IMG/VR virus record: IMGVR_UViG_3300031623_000065
Span: 1 to 20,580 of that record
Origin: a virus
Strand: one strand, 5' to 3'
Length of the DNA stretch: 20,580 bases
The translations under genes and the position numbers were made by a program. This document shows positions 5,973 through 20,580 of this stretch, piece by piece (within the stretch, counting starts at the first letter, position 1; every line of letters begins with the position of its first letter). The notes beneath the pieces were generated by a model, which saw only the letters and a list, made by a program, of their open reading frames with translations, made no database searches and was not told the origin of the DNA.

Positions 5973-6236
5973 TTATACATGAGGATTCGTTGATGTTATT
6001 GGTCTGTTTCCTACAGTTGTCACGGCAGTAGCACTGAGTGATCCTGCATCCGATACTACAATTTTAAAATAGCTGCCATTCGGTGACCTGAGTATAACTG
6101 AGCCTGTATCAAATACATTGTCCCTGGAGGTTTTACACGTTATTGCTTCCTCCGAAATAATTAATGAGGACAGGTCATACATATACTCCGGCTCATATTG
6201 CTCCGGAGGATTCGGTAATGGCTTTTGTGTCTTCAT
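5973..6236 (-). CDS. Small virion-associated protein, unknown
   Basis: 87 residues. The first 30 are polar with Pro/Glu/Tyr (QYEPEYMYDLSSL), then a beta-rich end: VILRSPNGSYFKIVVSDAGSL and ATAVTTVGNRP. This 'dG-yy-i-v-d-G-L-a-t' style pattern is seen at the C-terminus of several small phage structural proteins, so a virion role is likely, but the exact family is not recognised. It is coupled to the nozzle gene by an ATGA overlap and followed after 23 bases by the first ejection-type protein. Confidence 0.65.
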   Translation of the reverse strand: MKTQKPLPNPPEQYEPEYMYDLSSLIISEEAITCKTSRDNVFDTGSVILRSPNGSYFKIVVSDAGSLSATAVTTVGNRPITSTNPHV

Positions 6237-9200
6237 CTTTTCCCCGAAGCTGCTGCCTCAAAACGGACCTCTCCAAATCTCCACTCTTGGTCAAAGGGTG
6301 ATTCCACTCTCAAAATTGCTTGACGATCAGTGAATCGACAATCCGTGTACCCATCACTCTCCAGGGTGAATGGTCCATGAGTATCACCTGGTGCGTCTGG
6401 TGTTTTCCCCGTTACAATTTTCATACGGAGTCCATTGCTTCCGGCATCCGTATCGGTCAAAATAGAGTTTACGCTCATCATCTTATTTCCACCAGCAATT
6501 TCTATTGCACCAGTTTCTGCATAACACAAGTGATCCTCTGTTGCCACATTTGGGTGTGTGCTAGTAGAGACACCCTTTGCAACAACTCTATTTGCTTTAC
6601 CTGACAATGCATCAATATCTGCAGGAGCAGTCACTGAACTATCCCTTGGGACTGTTACATTATGAGTATCCGGGTCCATTTCATGTCTGTATAAGTATCC
6701 GTCACTTCCAGCCCATACAGGATAACCCAAAGCATCACTTGGCTCCATAGCAACTCTCTCTAATTCTCCGGTCACCCAATGCCCCTCACGATAACTATAT
6801 GTCACATAACGAGTACAAACGCTATCACCTTCTTTTGGATAGAACCACGAAATTTCACCAAATTCCCCATTATGTCCTGCTGCTATCAGTCCCTCTACAT
6901 CCAGGTTAATATCTGCAAAGACGTAATCTGCCACCTCACAACTAAGCTCCTTTATATATCCTCCTGTATAACTCCAGAAACGTCCCCTGCTCATCCAGGC
7001 TACAAAGTCGGCACTGCCAGCAATGCTTTTCATTCCTACGGGACCTGCACCTTCTGTTAGACGTTCTACCCCATAGACATAGGGGGGGCCAAGGTAATTT
7101 GTCCTCCAAACATCTGAAGTGGTGAAAATCAAAACACCATACCTTGTCTTAAATCCTCCAATGATCCGACCCTTAGTCTGGAGGTCTAAATCTCCTGCTG
7201 TATTAAGTAAGGAGGGACTAAAGTCTGTGAGTGATTCCTGGGACCCCCATTGGATCGTTCTATGTGCTCCGTCTGGAGCAAGGATCATTATATGTCTTTC
7301 CGGAGTAACCAATACTGCCACATTAGACCCTACGGGAACTCCAGTTGAATTAGCTACATCCTGTAATGCAATCGGGGCAGTTGCAGTTTGAGTTGCATTA
7401 TTAAAGGATATTGCACCACCTGTTCGACTTTCCCATGTATTTTCTCCATAACTTGGAGTAGTAAATGCTAATGCAGTTCCACCGTTACTTGTTGCAAGTT
7501 TAAATGTGTCAGTAGTCTTGTCTCTAACATATAAATCTGTGTAGGGAGGGACTCCTACTGGCAAGGCTCCAAGAGATGAAACCTGTATTATACTTCCGTC
7601 AATAAGTCCAGGAGCAGTAGATGTAATAGTTGAGTCAATAGCTTTTACAGTAATTGTTGCAACATTTACTGTGTTACCGGGATCAGTTAATAGGATTGTG
7701 TCATTAACTGAATACCCACTTCCTGCAGATGTGATTGCCACACTACCCAAATTATTTACTGTTGAGGTAACAACCGTAAATTTTGCCCCTGAACCAGAAC
7801 CAGTGGTAGATGATGAAGTACTCGTTTGAATTACATTTGTGTGTGTTTGTCCACTCTGCCAAGGAGCTAGGTTTGCACCGGAAATTGTCCATGTATGTGT
7901 CCCAGAACCTACAGTGGTAAGTGCTAATGCAGTCCCATTGGAAGTGGCTGCAAGTTTAAATGTATTTGCAGTCTTGTCTCTAACGAATAAATCTGTGGCT
8001 GCCGTAAGTCCTACAGGTAAGGCTCCAGATGAGGAAACTTGGACTTTATTTGTGTCAATAAGTCCATGTCCAGTAGATGTAATAGTTGGATCAAGAGTAC
8101 CTACTGTAAGTGTTGCAACATTTACTGTATTACCAGGATCAGTTACTAATATAGTGTCTCCAACAGCATACCCAGAACCAGCAGTTGTGACTGTTGCTGC
8201 AGACAAGTATGTACCCGATGATGCTGTAATTGTAAATTGTGCTCCTTGACCACCACCGGAGGTGCTAGTTTGAGATACAGTATTGTATGGGCCAGCCTGC
8301 CAAAAAGCCAGGTTTGCCCCCTCGTTTGTCCATGTGTGTGTCCCGGAACCTGGAGAAGTAAATGCTAATGCAGTCCCGTTTAAACTGGTTGTAAGTCTAA
8401 ATGTATTTGCAGTCCTGTCTCTAATATATAAATCAGTGGAGGCCGAAAGTCCTCCGGGTAATGATCCAGTGGTAGAAACCTGTACTCTATGTCCATCTAA
8501 AAGTGTATGCCCAGTAGATGTAAGAGTAGTGTCAGTAGGACCTACCGTAAGTGTTGCAGTCTCTGTTCCTGTGATATGTGGCAGGGTTGAGGGAGCACTC
8601 CCCGGATCAGTTAATACAATAGTGTCGTTTTCGGCATATCCACTTCCTGCAGTTGTGACGGTTACTGACTTTAAGTCTGTGTCAAGTGGGTCTTGAAACG
8701 ACAAATGCTGATAGTGATAACTGCCGGAAGCAGAACCATTAGCACGGGTAAGTTGTATTGTTGTTGAATTAGTTATGGATGCAATATAAGGCTGAATAAA
8801 CGATCCAAATGCATGATGCCCCATATCTCCATATAAACCATGTACTAACATACCTACAGAAAGATTAGAAGTATCCCCACAATCGATGCGAGTATTATAG
8901 TGCCAAACACTGCAACTTGATACAACAAGACCTAATTGGGTTACAACCGTAAATTTTGCCCCCGAACCAGAACCAGAAGTGCTAGTTTGGGATACATTAG
9001 TCCATGTTTTTTCAACTAAGGTTGCATTGCTAGCTGGGTTCCCACATTCCCATTGACCTGAAGTGGTGGAGGTAGTAAGAACAGCAACTCTACAAGTAGC
9101 ACCACCAGCCGGAGGATTAGGAAATGTTAATACATCTCCTATCCTATAACCAGTTCCAGCATTTTGTATTGTAACATTATTTACATCACCACCAGAACTA

Positions 9201-10456
9201 ACATATCCATCAACCGTAATACCTGAACCAGAACCTCCCGATAATCCAATACCATTAAATGATGACTCACCATGAGTACCATTTTGTACAATAGTATCAA
9301 GAGTAGCTATGGGGCCACTGTGAGGTAAAAATTCTTCAGCACCAGACGAGCTAGTGAATGTTTGACTAAGATTAGCTGGAATGTAAGTATTAGCTGGATT
9401 ACCAGAAGCACCTGTGTTTGTGAGTGCAGTAATACCAGATGCGGTAGTGAATGCTTGACTACGATTATCTGGAATGTAAGTATAAGGCTGAATACTTGCT
9501 GGAGTTGGGCCAACGGGTAGGAGTTCAGTAATACCAGATGCGGTAGTGAATGTCTGAGTTACACTGCCTCCTGTTTGAAATGACCAATACCAAATCGTAC
9601 CCTCTCCAGAATGACAGGCTAAAAGATCATCACCAAAATTATCGAAGCTGACACAACTTGCGAAATTGTCACGAAATGCATCTGCATCTTGTACATTTGG
9701 ATCGACAGCAGAATATCTTGGTGTTCCATAAATGTCTCCTCCTGAAGCTGCTCCCGTGTATGCTGGGTCTGTAAACCCTCCAGAACCAGAGAGCTTGTAT
9801 GTAACTCCTGTATCACCACCATATTGTAAGGCTCCGAAACCAAGACCTGCTATTTCAAAATCGGCTTGCTGGTGGAATGGTAAAGCCGACCCCGGAGAGG
9901 TTGGTGGAGTAATGTCATAGATTGGAGCATTAACTCCTGCACTCTGTGACCCATCCCAAATTCTTAAAGATTGAACAGAACCAACTGCCAAGTATCTTGC
10001 TCCAGTGGATAGTCTCCAGGAGTGTAATCCACGAATAGGATCAACACCAAAAAAATTGGTTGCTGTGATGACTGCACCACTTCCAGCAGAACCCGTTGTT
10101 GGAGTCAAAACAATCGTTGGAACAGAGGTGTATCCAGAACCGGGATCAGTGATTTTTACTGTTGAAATTCCCCCCCCAGATACAGTATATGTTCCAGCAA
10201 ATGGTACTGGACCTCCGACTGCCGAGAGTGTCCCACCATCTGCATGGTATCCAGAGCCGGGGGTTGTGATTGTTAATTTCTTTACTCCACCTTTTTGGGT
10301 AATCTGAGTATCTGTCAGTCTTTGCCATCCTCCAATTGGCCTTACTCGACCCTCAGAAAACCTGACTAGGTTCCCATCATACCAGCGATTCTTTGCCTGG
10401 TACTGGGTCCCGTTCTTGAAGAACCCTGGTGCTATTTTAATTGGTAGTAGTGACAT
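6233..10456 (-). CDS. Tail nozzle/hub beta-propeller protein with large repeat insertion
   Basis: 1407 residues. The start (LLPIKIAPGFFKNGTQYQAKNRWYDGNLVRF, in parts) and GGWQRL are typical of marine podovirus tail nozzle proteins, functional counterparts of P22 gp10 or T7 gp12 that close the tail tube. Propeller-like segments are at about 140-297 (GLHSWRLSTGARYLAVG, DDLLACHSGEGTIWYW) and 1013-1260 (VLVTPERHIMILAPDG, QWGSQESLTDFSP, GRIIGGFKTRYGVLIFT, GPPYVYGVERL). Between them, about residues 298-1012 are low-complexity Gly/Ser/Thr repeats: two to three 31-33-residue units, then three modules of about 150 residues with AGSGY, DTILxTDPGN, STGHGLID, LYVRDKTANTFKL and GTALA motifs. A smaller AGSGY-like pair lies at 59-133. 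The C-terminal 140 residues form a separate beta domain. The stop overlaps the next start (ATGA). Confidence 0.8.
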   Translation of the reverse strand: MSLLPIKIAPGFFKNGTQYQAKNRWYDGNLVRFSEGRVRPIGGWQRLTDTQITQKGGVKKLTITTPGSGYHADGGTLSAVGGPVPFAGTYTVSGGGISTVKITDPGSGYTSVPTIVLTPTTGSAGSGAVITATNFFGVDPIRGLHSWRLSTGARYLAVGSVQSLRIWDGSQSAGVNAPIYDITPPTSPGSALPFHQQADFEIAGLGFGALQYGGDTGVTYKLSGSGGFTDPAYTGAASGGDIYGTPRYSAVDPNVQDADAFRDNFASCVSFDNFGDDLLACHSGEGTIWYWSFQTGGSVTQTFTTASGITELLPVGPTPASIQPYTYIPDNRSQAFTTASGITALTNTGASGNPANTYIPANLSQTFTSSSGAEEFLPHSGPIATLDTIVQNGTHGESSFNGIGLSGGSGSGITVDGYVSSGGDVNNVTIQNAGTGYRIGDVLTFPNPPAGGATCRVAVLTTSTTSGQWECGNPASNATLVEKTWTNVSQTSTSGSGSGAKFTVVTQLGLVVSSCSVWHYNTRIDCGDTSNLSVGMLVHGLYGDMGHHAFGSFIQPYIASITNSTTIQLTRANGSASGSYHYQHLSFQDPLDTDLKSVTVTTAGSGYAENDTIVLTDPGSAPSTLPHITGTETATLTVGPTDTTLTSTGHTLLDGHRVQVSTTGSLPGGLSASTDLYIRDRTANTFRLTTSLNGTALAFTSPGSGTHTWTNEGANLAFWQAGPYNTVSQTSTSGGGQGAQFTITASSGTYLSAATVTTAGSGYAVGDTILVTDPGNTVNVATLTVGTLDPTITSTGHGLIDTNKVQVSSSGALPVGLTAATDLFVRDKTANTFKLAATSNGTALALTTVGSGTHTWTISGANLAPWQSGQTHTNVIQTSTSSSTTGSGSGAKFTVVTSTVNNLGSVAITSAGSGYSVNDTILLTDPGNTVNVATITVKAIDSTITSTAPGLIDGSIIQVSSLGALPVGVPPYTDLYVRDKTTDTFKLATSNGGTALAFTTPSYGENTWESRTGGAISFNNATQTATAPIALQDVANSTGVPVGSNVAVLVTPERHIMILAPDGAHRTIQWGSQESLTDFSPSLLNTAGDLDLQTKGRIIGGFKTRYGVLIFTTSDVWRTNYLGPPYVYGVERLTEGAGPVGMKSIAGSADFVAWMSRGRFWSYTGGYIKELSCEVADYVFADINLDVEGLIAAGHNGEFGEISWFYPKEGDSVCTRYVTYSYREGHWVTGELERVAMEPSDALGYPVWAGSDGYLYRHEMDPDTHNVTVPRDSSVTAPADIDALSGKANRVVAKGVSTSTHPNVATEDHLCYAETGAIEIAGGNKMMSVNSILTDTDAGSNGLRMKIVTGKTPDAPGDTHGPFTLESDGYTDCRFTDRQAILRVESPFDQEWRFGEVRFEAAASGKR
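7420..8670 (-). repeat. Three ~450-bp in-frame modules in nozzle gene
   Basis: The same DNA words recur in order, for example TCTCTAA...ATAAATC at 7521, 7977 and 8418 (spacings 456 and 441, both multiples of three), and ACATTTACTGT...GGATCAGTTA at about 7661 and 8118. Each module encodes about 147-152 residues with AGSGY, TDPG, STGH and RDKTANTFKL-type motifs. The copies have diverged by substitutions, so the duplications are older than the 30-bp repeat elsewhere. Confidence 0.85.
9300..9560 (-). repeat. Short tandem repeats (~99 bp) in nozzle gene
   Basis: The 27-base segment starting CAGTAATACCAGATGCGG is identical at 9427-9453 and 9526-9552, 99 bases apart. A third, diverged unit precedes it (GAATGTTTGACTAAGATTAG at 9356). 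They encode repeats of the type SQTFTTASGIT...YIPDN at about residues 300-331, 332-363 and 364 onwards. Near-identity of the first two shows a recent duplication. Confidence 0.85.
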
Positions 10457-16416: not shown

Positions 16417-16827
16417 TTAGCTTACTGTTTGAGTTGACCATGTTGCATCCGATAAATCCTGTTTGCCCCATGTTACATCCGATAAATTCTGTTCGTCCCA
16501 TGTTGCATCTGGTAAATCCTGCTTGTCCCATGCAAGGTATCCAAAAGTAAAAATAGTCCCTTGTCCTGTTACTGTGTCTCCAAAACCAGCCCATGTAGCA
16601 ACCGGATATGAGTACATGGTTGTCGTGCCTTGCATATCACCCCATCCTCTCCAAACTGCATTTCCAAATGTTAAAACAGTCGAAGTTGAAGAAGTTTGAG
16701 CGTATCCGTGCCTTTGTGCAATTCCAAACGTATTTACTGTGGAGGTTGCATCAAGGTCAGTGTGACCGACAATGACTCCTCTGCCAAATGTTCCCTGGTT
16801 AAATTTTGCGGAACCAAAACCTAGCAT
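16417..16827 (-). CDS. Repeat-solenoid virion protein
   Basis: 136 residues made almost entirely of repeats. Residues 13-93 hold four units of 20-21 residues, each starting TFG or a variant (TFGRGVIVGH, TFGIAQRHGY, TFGNAVWRGW, SYPVATWAGF), with a fifth start at 94 (TFGYLAW). From about residue 100 to 130 there are three 10-residue units (WDKQDLPDAT, WDEQNLSDVT, WGKQDLSDAT). Such regular Gly/aromatic repeats suggest a small beta-solenoid or propeller-like rod, probably a surface or fibre component. The 10-residue units come from a nearly exact 30-bp DNA repeat, so they are recent. It starts by a one-base TGATG overlap with the previous gene and ends three bases before the collar fibre. No named family is recognised. 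Confidence 0.65.
   Translation of the reverse strand: MLGFGSAKFNQGTFGRGVIVGHTDLDATSTVNTFGIAQRHGYAQTSSTSTVLTFGNAVWRGWGDMQGTTTMYSYPVATWAGFGDTVTGQGTIFTFGYLAWDKQDLPDATWDEQNLSDVTWGKQDLSDATWSTQTVS
16438..16527 (-). repeat. 30-bp tandem repeat, three copies, in coding DNA
   Basis: Three head-to-tail 30-base units start at 16438, 16468 and 16498, each beginning CCATGTT on the plus strand and followed by a partial CCATG at 16528. They differ at only a few positions. The unit length is a multiple of three and encodes a 10-residue repeat at the end of the solenoid protein, so copy number can change without a frameshift. Confidence 0.9.
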
Positions 16828-17243
16828 CAGTCAAGTTGTATCTTAATGGTGGATGCATTGAACTTGAAAATGTCTCCATCATTTATCGTTTTTGTTGTAG
16901 TGGTGGAAAAATCCGATTTTTGCAGATTTTGGAAGGCCACTAACTCACCTCCACTAGCTGATTCATAGATTCCTACCCATCCAACTATCCCCCAATCTCC
17001 TCCACTTGCTGTTGGAAACGTGATTGCTGACGTATTGGTTGCCTGTGCGACACCTGAACCACTTATCGTAAAAGCACAAATCTGACGGGCATACGCACTT
17101 CCTGACACCTCTGTTCCTCCTGCTGAGTCGGATGGAGTTGCAGTCAGTAGCCCGACATACCAATTAGTAGGCCTGTCGTATGTTGTTGAACCAAAAACGT
17201 GGTTTATTATTTTGTCTTCAAGGTAATTCGTGAGTCCTGCCAT
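16827..17243 (-). CDS. Small virion protein, possible neck/tail-fibre attachment type
   Basis: 138 residues beginning MAGLTNYLEDKIINHVFG, followed by NWYVGLLTATPSD and later WGIVGWVGIYES, with a Ser/Thr/Ala-rich beta-strand composition throughout. This N-terminal pattern (a short helix, then an x-YVGLxTxxP strand) is common in small phage virion proteins annotated as neck, head-fibre or tail-fibre-like (gp80-like). I recognise the pattern but cannot assign an exact role. It ends with KIQLD and shares one base with the following start (TGATG), so the two are translationally coupled. It lies nine bases after the adaptor gene, at the border between head and adhesin genes. Confidence 0.65.
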   Translation of the reverse strand: MAGLTNYLEDKIINHVFGSTTYDRPTNWYVGLLTATPSDSAGGTEVSGSAYARQICAFTISGSGVAQATNTSAITFPTASGGDWGIVGWVGIYESASGGELVAFQNLQKSDFSTTTTKTINDGDIFKFNASTIKIQLD

Positions 17244-17252
17244 ATTCGTTTA

Positions 17253-17864
17253 TTAGAAGGGTATGAATGAGATGCTCGGAGTTGAACCACTGAACTTGGC
17301 ATTTTCGTCCGATGTTGTGATTTGCTGAATAATCTGCTGGTATTTCCCAGCCCAGATTCCTACTCTTTCATCCTGTTGCAGGTAAGGGGCAGAATGCATT
17401 AAAGTTCCATAAAGATATGCATCTGGATGATTAGTTAATAACCAGTTCGTTGGGTTTGCAGAAAGTGTCGGAATCTTTTGGTAATACACAATCTCAAGTG
17501 TATATGTTCCATCTGGGACAGGTGCAAACTCGATATTATTCTGCATAATTGAATAATAAATTGGTTTACCCGTCTTGTCGTTTCTACGATGTATATCCAG
17601 GTTCTGGAGGTTTTTATACTCAAGTGGAGTCACTGGATCAGTCATCAACTCAATGTTCCTCATTCCAAGAAAATCATCCGGCAGTTTCACATACTGACCA
17701 TCAATCTGGCCTTGTGTCCGAACAGACATTTCCCGTACCCTCAAGGTCCTGTTAAAATCTGCTTCTGCCAGTGTGATGAAATCTGGGATTACGGAACTGA
17801 GGTCGGACCTGTTCAAGAAATCTGCAACTGATGCTTTCAGGTCAGTATAATTTGCTAATGCCAT
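17253..17864 (-). CDS. Head-tail adaptor protein, SU10 adaptor type
   Basis: 203 residues. The N-terminus (NYTDLKASVADFLNRSDL, then VIPDFITLAEADFNRTLRVREM) is the helical signature of the SU10-type adaptor family. The middle follows the usual pattern: KLPDDFLGMRNIEL (about 80-93), the TPLEYKN segment, then IEFAPVPDGTYTLEIVYYQKIP (about 131-152) and a C-terminal helical LLTNHPDAYLYGTLMHSAPYL segment. In the family these proteins sit as a ring under the portal and join it to the tail. Size is in the normal range. The start overlaps the end of the glycosyltransferase-like gene by 10 bases, with GGTGA just upstream of the ATG. The position after head genes and before tail genes agrees with the call. 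Confidence 0.85.
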   Translation of the reverse strand: MALANYTDLKASVADFLNRSDLSSVIPDFITLAEADFNRTLRVREMSVRTQGQIDGQYVKLPDDFLGMRNIELMTDPVTPLEYKNLQNLDIHRRNDKTGKPIYYSIMQNNIEFAPVPDGTYTLEIVYYQKIPTLSANPTNWLLTNHPDAYLYGTLMHSAPYLQQDERVGIWAGKYQQIIQQITTSDENAKFSGSTPSISFIPF

Positions 17865-18532
17865 GTTTCACCATAATTTAATGCCTTTACATCCTGTGAG
17901 AGAACGTGGTCAATAACACAGGGTATTGCTTTTTCTTTACACTGATCCCAGAATGGTATGTGGTCCTCGTTGAACCCTGGTGTACTTCCAATCTGTTTGT
18001 ATTCAAAAAATGGTATATCCAGAACATCAAATACTGGCATATTGAATAAAACCATGCCAAGTGCCACACCATCCACTTCCTCAGTTTCTGGTGCTGATGG
18101 GTCAGGAACAACCGTTCCGTTACCCCGGTAAGCAGCAAATTCTCCGAAAGAAGGGTTACGTAAATAATTTACCCCAAGCACTGCTCTTCCTCGTGCCAGC
18201 ATCCTATGTAGTGAATCTTCTGGGAAAACCAATCCTGTGGATAAAAAAAGGACATGTGTTGCTTCCCATCCGATTGCATCACCGATTAAATGATGCCTTA
18301 TTTCTGGTATTACCCTGCCACTTTGGGCAAAGACTTTTATTTCGTGTTCTCCCTCAAAATCACTTTTCTGAAAATGCTGAACCATATTTGCTAAACTCTC
18401 ACCGAACTTAGCAGGCCAGAATCCAGAAAATGAAGGTATTAAAACTGCAACTTTCAGAGTCTTCCGGGCCACGTCCGAAACATCTTGTTTGCCGGATCGT
18501 TTGCCCATACCTTCCAGTCTTTTGGTGACCAT
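17855..18532 (-). CDS. Glycosyltransferase-fold (GT-A-like) protein lacking DxD
   Basis: Up to 225 residues. The start of the fold is visible as KVAVLIPSFSG (27-37), followed by a helix and the segment EATHVLFLSTGLVFPEDSL (90-108). Phage and bacterial GT2-like proteins have a DxD metal/nucleotide-sugar motif at this exact place (LFxDxDxxFPxD). Here both acids are replaced, giving S98-T99-G100. The downstream marks of the family are kept: LARGRAVLGVNYLR (112-125), a glycine-rich GVALGMVLFNMPVF strand (155-168) and GFNEDHIPFW (187-195). It may be a structural or binding relative rather than an active enzyme. Start is uncertain: ATG 18532 overlaps the previous gene by 79 bases, whereas GTG 18472 overlaps by 19. 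It overlaps the adaptor start by 10 bases. Confidence 0.7.
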   Translation of the reverse strand: MVTKRLEGMGKRSGKQDVSDVARKTLKVAVLIPSFSGFWPAKFGESLANMVQHFQKSDFEGEHEIKVFAQSGRVIPEIRHHLIGDAIGWEATHVLFLSTGLVFPEDSLHRMLARGRAVLGVNYLRNPSFGEFAAYRGNGTVVPDPSAPETEEVDGVALGMVLFNMPVFDVLDIPFFEYKQIGSTPGFNEDHIPFWDQCKEKAIPCVIDHVLSQDVKALNYGETWH

Positions 18533-18750
18533 TTCTCCCGTAATGATTGATCTAAAACGAATCTAGGGATACATGCTGAGTGCCGTATTCCTTTTGACGG
18601 TTGTAGCTCAGACATATCCTTTGCCAGCTTTATGATAGGTTCAACGTCCTCTGTTGACTCAATCGTAAAGCTCTTATCGTGTTGATCCCAAGAGAAGACT
18701 TCCGTCCTCCCCTGAGACCAATCGAGCAGAGTTTTCCTGCTTGCAGACAT
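18454..18750 (-). CDS. Small conserved-looking head protein, function unknown
   Basis: 98 residues, soluble, with several Trp residues (including WSPKDWKVWANDPANK near 73-88) and no membrane segment. It begins one base after the capsid stop and has no clear Shine-Dalgarno of its own, so it is probably translated by coupling to the capsid gene. Its 3' end overlaps the longest reading of the following gene by 79 bases, and by only 19 bases if that gene starts at its GTG (18472). Position between capsid and adaptor genes suggests a head or head-completion role. I do not recognise the family. The compact placement and protein-like composition support it as a real gene. Confidence 0.7.
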   Translation of the reverse strand: MSASRKTLLDWSQGRTEVFSWDQHDKSFTIESTEDVEPIIKLAKDMSELQPSKGIRHSACIPRFVLDQSLREKWSPKDWKVWANDPANKMFRTWPGRL

Positions 18751-18751
18751 A

Positions 18752-19702
18752 TTACGAAACAGTCAGATCGGCACAAATGCCGGAGGCTGCTTGGTTTTTG
18801 GCAATTAGTGCATATTCCACTAAAAGTGCCTTTTTGTTTGCATCAGAAGTTTTTGCTATGTCTTCTTGCTTGAAATCTCTGAAATATGCTACAGACCAAT
18901 ACTCAGGGTCCAGAACAAATGCAGATTGTTCACGTTGGAAACGATTTGGGATAACTTTCAAATCTCCAAAGTCAGAAGCATACAAATCTGCTGCTGCCTG
19001 GATTTTTGTTGCCCCAATCATCTGACGTGCCGAGGTACGGCCCCCGAAACTAGCACTTACCACACCCTTGTTATATGGACCAACCATTAAAACGGATGGG
19101 TCCCCACCACTTGAGTATGTTGCCTGAATTACTGCCTTCAGAATGGTTTCTGTGAAAGCTCTTTTTGTAGTTGCATCCACTGGGGCTGCACCTGCACCTG
19201 CACCAGAACCAACTGTTGAACCACCACCACGACTTACGTTAGAAGAAGTCCAAGTCTCCAACCCACCTGTTTTACGGGCTGCTGTTGCTGTGCCAGCACT
19301 TTTGCCTACGTTTTGGGTGAGTACAGTTTCCATATCTCGCTTTAATTGCTTAGAATTTTTTGCGAGCTGAAGTGCCATCTCTGAATCTCTGCCAGCATTG
19401 TTACTTGCTTGCTGAGAACCAGAAATCATCACTGTGTTGGATGAGATTTGGGTATGGTTTGAGAGTCTCGTTGTTACAGGAACAGCAGAAAATGCATACA
19501 AATCTCCCTCGATCTGTGCATTATGTGCTGCTGCAGCAAGGGTATCCGTTTGCCATTCTGTTAAAGTGTTAGTTGCCTTCGACCTGCCGATCATTGACAT
19601 AAAAGGCACATCTGAAGGTGAAATATTATAAATTGTGTTTGCCAAATCTTCTCTACGACCAATTGCCGTGTAAGTTTGGTATGTTCCAGCTATAGCTGCC
19701 AT
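18752..19702 (-). CDS. Major capsid protein, SU10/DUF5309 family
   Basis: 316 residues. The N-terminal region (about residues 8-55) has the pattern of the SU10-type major capsid family: a REDLANTIYNISPSDVPF segment, then a short Ser/Lys loop and a TLTEWQTDTLA segment. These proteins form the icosahedral shell with an HK97-like fold. Residues 153-178 are a Gly/Ser/Ala-rich flexible loop, and the C-terminal half (about 235-300) has the expected DFGDLKVIPNRF and DPEYWSVAYF strands. The start is well supported by an AAGGAG Shine-Dalgarno six bases before the ATG, the strongest ribosome site among the head genes, which fits the most abundant virion protein. It follows the scaffold gene by 15 bases and is followed after one base by the next small gene. 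Confidence 0.92.
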   Translation of the reverse strand: MAAIAGTYQTYTAIGRREDLANTIYNISPSDVPFMSMIGRSKATNTLTEWQTDTLAAAAHNAQIEGDLYAFSAVPVTTRLSNHTQISSNTVMISGSQQASNNAGRDSEMALQLAKNSKQLKRDMETVLTQNVGKSAGTATAARKTGGLETWTSSNVSRGGGSTVGSGAGAGAAPVDATTKRAFTETILKAVIQATYSSGGDPSVLMVGPYNKGVVSASFGGRTSARQMIGATKIQAAADLYASDFGDLKVIPNRFQREQSAFVLDPEYWSVAYFRDFKQEDIAKTSDANKKALLVEYALIAKNQAASGICADLTVS

Positions 19703-19717
19703 AATTACTCCTTATTG

Positions 19718-20566
19718 TTATTTTGAACGAATCATGTTATAGAATACTCCAGCAGCATCCTCGACACTGCCAGATTTTTTAAGTCTCTGTGCTGCCTTTC
19801 CAGCTTTCATTTTACTGGGTTCTCCAGACTGTGATCCTGCTCTTAAATTTTGACGTTGGACGGGTTTAAGGCTTTTACGTTTTTCAGTAAGTTGGTCATA
19901 TTTCATTGCTTTTCTCATTGTTGCAACTGCTCTGGCATCATAGGCATTATCCAACTCTTCTTTTGTGAATTTACCTGTTGTGCTTGCCCACTCAAGAACC
20001 AACTTCTTTTCTGCATCAGCCACTTTTGTATCATCCCACTCAGGAACGAGGGATTTAAGCTCGTTATGTTGTGAGGATACAAATTGCTCCTTTTCAAGTT
20101 GTCTTTCTGCAGCCTCCTGTGCCCTCAACTGTTCTAGTTGAATGGACCGTTGGTGTTCCTGCATCTGACCTTCTCTTAGAGCATCCCGTTCCATCATCCA
20201 CTGCATCGGATCGGTGTCTTTAAGATTTTCCCAATAAGCACTATCATGCTGTTCAGGTTGAGTCTGTGCTTTGGCATGCTCAAGGATGGAGATTGCTTGT
20301 TCCCTCATTTGTCTTGAGTCTGCCTGTTCCTGCTCAAAAGCCTTTCGATCTGTTGCTAGGCTTTGGCTTTTCTGAGTATAATTCTCACCTTTGGAAAAAT
20401 TGTCTTGTAATGCCTGTAAGGTGACGGATTTGGTTTCTCCATCGGACTTGACTTCAAAAAGCTGCTCCTCTGGTTCTTCCTCATCCTCCTCATACTCTTC
20501 TTCCTGCACATCCTCTAAGTCTGGTTCTTCTTCAGACTCTGACATCAACTGGTTATCTTCGTTCAC
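19718..20566 (-). CDS. Putative capsid scaffolding protein
   Basis: About 282 residues, very acidic at the N-terminus (Glu/Asp-rich over the first 40 residues), then a long charged Gln/Glu/Lys-rich helical stretch with coiled-coil character, and a basic C-terminal tail ending in FYNMIRSK. This acidic-coil-basic layout and the position directly before the major capsid gene are typical of podovirus scaffolding proteins, which bind capsid subunits during prohead assembly and then leave. A GTG start at 20566 is preferred because GAGGAA lies six bases upstream (20578-20573). A TTG at 20572 is also in frame and the frame stays open to the window edge, so a longer protein cannot be excluded. There is no recognisable enzymatic domain. 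The role is inferred from composition and context. Confidence 0.7.
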   Translation of the reverse strand: MNEDNQLMSESEEEPDLEDVQEEEYEEDEEEPEEQLFEVKSDGETKSVTLQALQDNFSKGENYTQKSQSLATDRKAFEQEQADSRQMREQAISILEHAKAQTQPEQHDSAYWENLKDTDPMQWMMERDALREGQMQEHQRSIQLEQLRAQEAAERQLEKEQFVSSQHNELKSLVPEWDDTKVADAEKKLVLEWASTTGKFTKEELDNAYDARAVATMRKAMKYDQLTEKRKSLKPVQRQNLRAGSQSGEPSKMKAGKAAQRLKKSGSVEDAAGVFYNMIRSK

Positions 20567-20580
20567 CGGCAATTCCTCAC

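Follow-up and report, generated by a model that had tools for sequence, protein, structure and literature searches.

What does a virus retain a glycosyltransferase-like protein for when the residues expected to bind the metal ion and to act as catalytic base are gone? This question is raised by a gene in the capsid cluster of IMG/VR record IMGVR_UViG_3300031623_000065, of which 20,580 nucleotides were analyzed (hereafter, the window). The minus-strand open reading frame at positions 17855-18532 has 225 codons, and its translation places the segment LFLSTGLVFPED at residues 95-106. An earlier note had proposed that in this segment Ser-Thr-Gly replaces the DxD motif of glycosyltransferases (GTs), and the register proves exact when the protein is aligned with LWLDTDMRFPKD of relatives encoded at the same genomic position.

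The gene and its place in the capsid cluster

All genes of the cluster lie on the minus strand. In the reading direction, a scaffolding protein (19718-20578, its 5′ end off the window edge; phrog_3927, 3e-39) is followed by the SU10-type major capsid protein (18752-19702; PF17236, SU10_MCP, 8e-90), the 98-amino-acid protein p98 (18454-18750; phrog_3982), the window gene, the SU10-type adaptor (17253-17864; PF24175, SU10_adaptor, 3.7e-38) and a gp80-like head/fibre protein (16827-17243; PF23140, 1.9e-34). The gene had been described as lying between capsid and adaptor genes. This holds on the adaptor side, while p98 intervenes on the capsid side. The order scaffold-capsid-p98-GT-adaptor is kept among relatives. 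Moreover, p98 precedes this slot and the adaptor in almost all relatives, whether a GT gene is present or not, and therefore looks like a core component.

The predicted GT-A domain, with the character of a putative pseudo-glycosyltransferase (AlphaFold2, Foldseek, hhalign and dN/dS; see below), covers residues 26-225 (17855-18457), and the N-terminal extension in front of it (18458-18532), on the 3′ end of p98, is doubtful. Residues 1-20 are modeled with pLDDT below 50, stop codons break the extension in two related loci (L019 and L020), and the ATG of the relatives that carry DxD corresponds to residue 26 of the window protein (18457). Candidate starts in the window are ATG at 18532, ATG at 18508 or GTG at 18472. 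Since the residue-26 codon in the clade without DxD is CTG, CTA or TTA, the true start is uncertain. The first ~25 codons (~78 bases; 18454-18532) overprint the end of p98, and the final 10 bases (17855-17864) are at the same time the start of the adaptor gene, ATGGCATTAG (..TGG CAT TAG read as ATG GCA TTA G). As a result of these overlaps, apparent conservation at either end is not caused by the window protein. In particular, the invariant C-terminal Trp-His of the clade is dictated by the adaptor start, and its candidacy as a new ligand was dropped. A frameshift fusion with p98 was likewise dropped, as inspection of the junction by eye revealed no slippery sequence. Scans for promoters, terminators and repeats in the region of the gene gave results near the chance level.

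By homology and by position between p98 and the adaptor, the window protein belongs to a family of capsid-slot phage GTs. Members with DxD, such as those of MW202711.1 (annotated "putative glycosyltransferase") and MW202496.1, have the p98-GT-adaptor arrangement in common with the window, and are about 27-28% identical to its protein, with clear profile homology. In the slot of the cultured capsid relatives HTVC106P, Venkman, MJing1 and phiM5, a gene of this kind is absent. Sinorhizobium phage phiM5 (L125, 5346-6656) encodes an SGNH/GDSL hydrolase immediately ahead of p98, in the interval from capsid gene to adaptor, and its depositors found this protein in the phage particle. The capsid-to-adaptor stretch may host interchangeable accessory genes. 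In a more distant capsid group (L107-L116), the interval from p98 to the adaptor is filled by ~300 bp of different sequence (e.g., L114, 6446-6743), and in L104 and L105 a large insertion of about 3.5 kb parts the capsid gene from p98. Two contigs, L058 (3263-3874 and 5001-5612) and L059, each carry two DxD GT genes of the same family, with no recognizable SU10-type neighbors. Elsewhere in the window, a 1407-amino-acid reading frame (6233-10456) has several repeated segments with a motif like TTAGSGYAVGDTILVTDPG and probably specifies an internally duplicated tail or fibre protein.

Predicted fold and active-site motifs

The structure prediction and comparison with GT-A folds that the earlier note had called for returned a GT-A fold. 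The AlphaFold2 model, for which the window protein was aligned with IMG/VR relatives (40 rows), has a mean pLDDT of 87.6 and a pTM of 0.84, and the protein is well predicted to adopt the alpha/beta/alpha Rossmann-like GT-A architecture. The first match of the model in the PDB (Foldseek) is A197 of the archaeal virus STIV (2c0n; E 1.7e-8, TM 0.56/0.65). It is followed by collagen galactosyltransferases, mimivirus R699 and LH3, with vaccinia H3 lower. At E<=0.001 there are 130 PDB matches, with GTs making up most of those at the top of the list, and many of the named top matches among predicted viral proteins are GTs or GT-A domains of uncultured phages. A control model of a DxD relative (pLDDT 93.0) gives the same leading PDB matches with somewhat better E-values. 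Profile-profile alignment (hhalign) with the DxD relatives gives E 7.2e-33 and is ungapped through the relevant parts.

In the window protein, S98-T99-G100 (codons 18233-18241) occupies the DxD position, H191 that of the xED Asp, and A217 (17882-17884) that of the C-terminal His, which belongs to an HIG motif in the relatives. Residues E189-D190-H191 (17960-17968) stand opposite the relatives' G-E-D in both the MAFFT and the hhalign register. Both Asp residues of DxD, the base Asp and the His are invariant in 32/32 DxD relatives. By contrast, DxD, base Asp and C-terminal His are all absent from the 42 distinct full-length clade members in IMG/VR. The first motif position of the clade is S, A, T, Q or M, the second is mostly P, and the third is E in 38, G in three and H in one. 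At the base position there are 24 His, 10 Phe and eight Tyr, and at the C-terminal His position 38 Ser, three Ala and one Asn. The earlier statement that both catalytic acids are missing thus extends to the whole clade, with DxD in 0/42 members. When homologs are compared at the STG position, it is the loss of DxD that is clade-wide; STG itself is confined to the small subclade of the window, the clade norm being xPE.

The earlier note also held that the remaining fold signatures stay. This is the case for the fold and for the G-loop glycine, which by its position in the sequence would be G159 (42/42; aligned with G133 of L021), while the xED Asp and the C-terminal His have gone. Of the four motifs canonical for a metal-dependent GT-A enzyme, only this putative glycine is found. 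The relatives' xED Asp aligns with Asp151 (D151) of STIV A197, which has been named its catalytic base (PMC4187194). Within the GT-A core, the C-terminal His is the residue linked to the metal (PMC7185993), but it is not universal among active GT-A families. The clade further keeps G72, R/K79 (42/42), F103-P104, N122-Y123, D208 and S212, along with a large part of the hydrophobic core; D190 is present in 42/42 and E189 in 40/42 members. Several further polar positions that show little or no variation in the DxD group (R10, D11, Q48, R72 and R96 in L021 numbering) are replaced in the clade, which indicates that the rewriting went beyond the metal site. The excess loss of polar relative to non-polar conserved positions was not significant (Fisher p 0.11).

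Since the clade retains an E-D dipeptide one residue ahead of the xED position, the register was checked. From F176/F150 to D208/D182 the offset is constant at 26, the predicted helix end and the next strand agree between the models, and MAFFT and hhalign are both ungapped. E189-D190 was accordingly dropped as the retained catalytic base that would have favored a metal-free enzyme. The pair lies one residue off, and His, Phe or Tyr stands at the base position itself.

Descent and selection

In a 66-row tree the 30 non-DxD sequences form one clade with 100/100 support, whose stem measures 1.7-2.0 changes per site. Within it, the STG/SAG subclade branches from among xPE members, suggesting that the window's motif is a later, more extreme state. 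As the deep placement of the clade rests on long branches, the strongest argument for descent from a DxD enzyme is the shared slot. In the capsid tree, the carriers of the altered protein belong to a single group, which also contains two separate nested lineages that have no such gene and in which the adaptor directly follows p98. Hence, the gene moves together with the capsid cluster, yet it is dispensable.

The gene evolves with a median dN/dS of 0.091 (range 0.03-0.19, 42 pairs), compared with 0.138 for the capsid gene, 0.134 for p98 and 0.118 for the adaptor gene. Being no higher than for capsid or adaptor genes, these values argue that the gene is functional. The clade is known only from metagenomic viral contigs, the longest of 37.5 kb; a pattern search of 84,980 bacterial and archaeal genomes found no relative.

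Enzyme, relic or accessory protein

Collectively, these data favor, as the probable reading, a catalytically dead GT fold retained as an accessory protein that would be associated with the virion or its assembly; we infer the inactivity, the virion location and any ligand. That the clade protein is non-catalytic is likely judging from its residues, and since it has lost the enzyme residues while its gene is preserved as strictly as the capsid gene, it probably has a new, non-enzymatic job. Our confidence is held at this level mainly by the shifted E189-D190 pair, which lies one residue ahead of the former base site, hardly varies and could, going by sequence, have taken over a catalytic role. 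If the protein is indeed non-catalytic, the chances that it is part of the virion, or directly bound to it, are roughly balanced.

An active, metal-independent GT-A enzyme, as suggested in the earlier note, would use basic and hydroxyl side chains in place of the metal and E189-D190 as the base, with a capsid or tail protein as the target. Bacterial GT6 and GT14 enzymes lost DxD and stayed active without metal, so that DxD loss alone leaves such an enzyme possible, and the strong purifying selection and the conservation of D190, E189, G159 and R/K79 are what it would predict. Known metal-free GT-A enzymes, however, retain a functional active site; in the clade, His, Phe (10/42) or Tyr stands at the base position in an ungapped alignment with matching secondary-structure offsets, many ancestral polar positions have changed (R10, D11, Q48 and R72 of L021), and no newly invariant Lys or Arg could be placed at the phosphate site from sequence. 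The suggestion is weakened by this, and we consider it unlikely, if still worth bearing in mind. A metal-dependent enzyme with a rebuilt site, in which the cation is coordinated by E100 of xPE together with E189/D190 and a displaced His, draws on the Glu at the third motif position in 38/42 members and on a His two residues past the old C-terminal His position in 28/42. Such a site would be missing in exactly the window protein, whose subclade has G100 and N219; moreover, L091 has H100, and the His region is deleted in L151, L152 and L155. A rebuilt metal site is accordingly improbable.

Loss of the catalytic residues together with the two gene-less nested lineages might also be taken to mark an inactivated capsid-linked GT decaying without function. 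The DxD homologs do not reveal simple decay: the 42 sequences form one clade with a dN/dS of ~0.09, every one of the 42 pairs lies between 0.03 and 0.19, and the core is intact in the full-length members seen, with 44 invariant positions across the 42 sequences. Decay is excluded by these selection data, and we give it hardly any weight. The same is true, even more so, of an accidental, by-eye resemblance with no GT fold at all. Such a resemblance would fit the results from Pfam and PHROGs, which gave the window protein and the clade members tested nothing above noise, and the lack of a GT match when a clade-only profile was run against PDB sequences. A phmmer search of PDB sequences with the single protein returned noise, and a mixed alignment was too diverse to scan contigs with. 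The hhalign match to the DxD relatives, the model with its Foldseek matches and a slot shared with annotated GTs already refute it, unless an experimental structure differs.

Known systems are instructive in weighing a non-catalytic GT fold. STIV A197, a putative capsid-glycosylating enzyme, is like the window protein a minimal single-domain viral GT-A protein, but it has DxD, a metal site and the catalytic base (PMC4187194), and it is essential to STIV (PMC10551542), whereas the window gene is absent from close relatives. Human COSMC (C1GALT1C1), a GT31 pseudoenzyme, has a GT-A fold that lost both DxD and xED and retains a non-catalytic role as a chaperone (PMC7185993). Its client is an active paralogous enzyme, while in eight related phage records (up to 37.5 kb, possibly incomplete) one family member per record and no second, paralogous one was found. 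In vaccinia H3 (PDB 5ej0), a virion protein with a GT fold, mutation of ExD leaves growth nearly normal, while deletion costs about a log (PMC12172419), showing that such a protein can matter to a virus when its active-site acids hardly do. H3 is found in the virion, whereas the window protein is known by its cluster position; H3 also keeps ExD and binds UDP-glucose with a cation (PMC10747254), is membrane-anchored and has no demonstrated sequence relationship to the window protein, whose clade has no DxD. Bacterial GT6 BoGT6a and GT14 share the loss of DxD with the clade and stay catalytic via defined compensating residues (PMC3961637), none of which was identified here. Joint loss of DxD and the base Asp follows the COSMC pattern, here in a constrained gene, and together with the H3 precedent it favors a pseudo-glycosyltransferase.

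The proposed course would begin with descent from a phage GT-A enzyme between p98 and the adaptor, or from an ancestor common with it in that slot, as homology, synteny and the tree suggest. What is shown is that the protein of one capsid clade sits on a long stem, has lost DxD together with the base Asp of xED and the metal-binding His near the C-terminus, and is held under strong purifying selection. With sugar transfer gone, the fold would serve as a binding or scaffold surface, acting late in virion assembly or on the particle; this is suggested by the gene's position, its overlaps with the p98 and adaptor genes and the viral precedents. As related phages do without the gene, the factor would be accessory rather than essential. 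The predicted fold, the clade-wide loss of three motifs and strong purifying selection in place of decay thus bear out the earlier idea of an inactive transferase kept for a new role. Of the assembly factor that was also suggested, an accessory one fits, while an essential one is unlikely given the two nested lineages without the gene. A dedicated non-catalytic virion protein, decorating head or neck by binding sugar or capsid, is a more tentative proposal and rather less probable than loss of catalysis as such, as position in a capsid cluster alone is no proof of presence in the virion.

Pseudoenzymes with the GT-A fold have been described in animals, and poxviruses have a virion protein with a GT fold. 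A literature search on phage GT pseudoenzymes near capsid genes found nothing relevant, and no account turned up of a phage family whose capsid-linked GT had been stripped of every active-site motif while the rest was kept at a dN/dS of ~0.09. In related phages one and the same slot is found in three states, with an active-looking (DxD) protein, with an inactive-looking one or with none. The role of capsid-linked GTs, and that of the fold without catalysis, is therefore directly testable. If the protein is truly a virion component, an old modifying enzyme would have been turned into a structural part of the phage.
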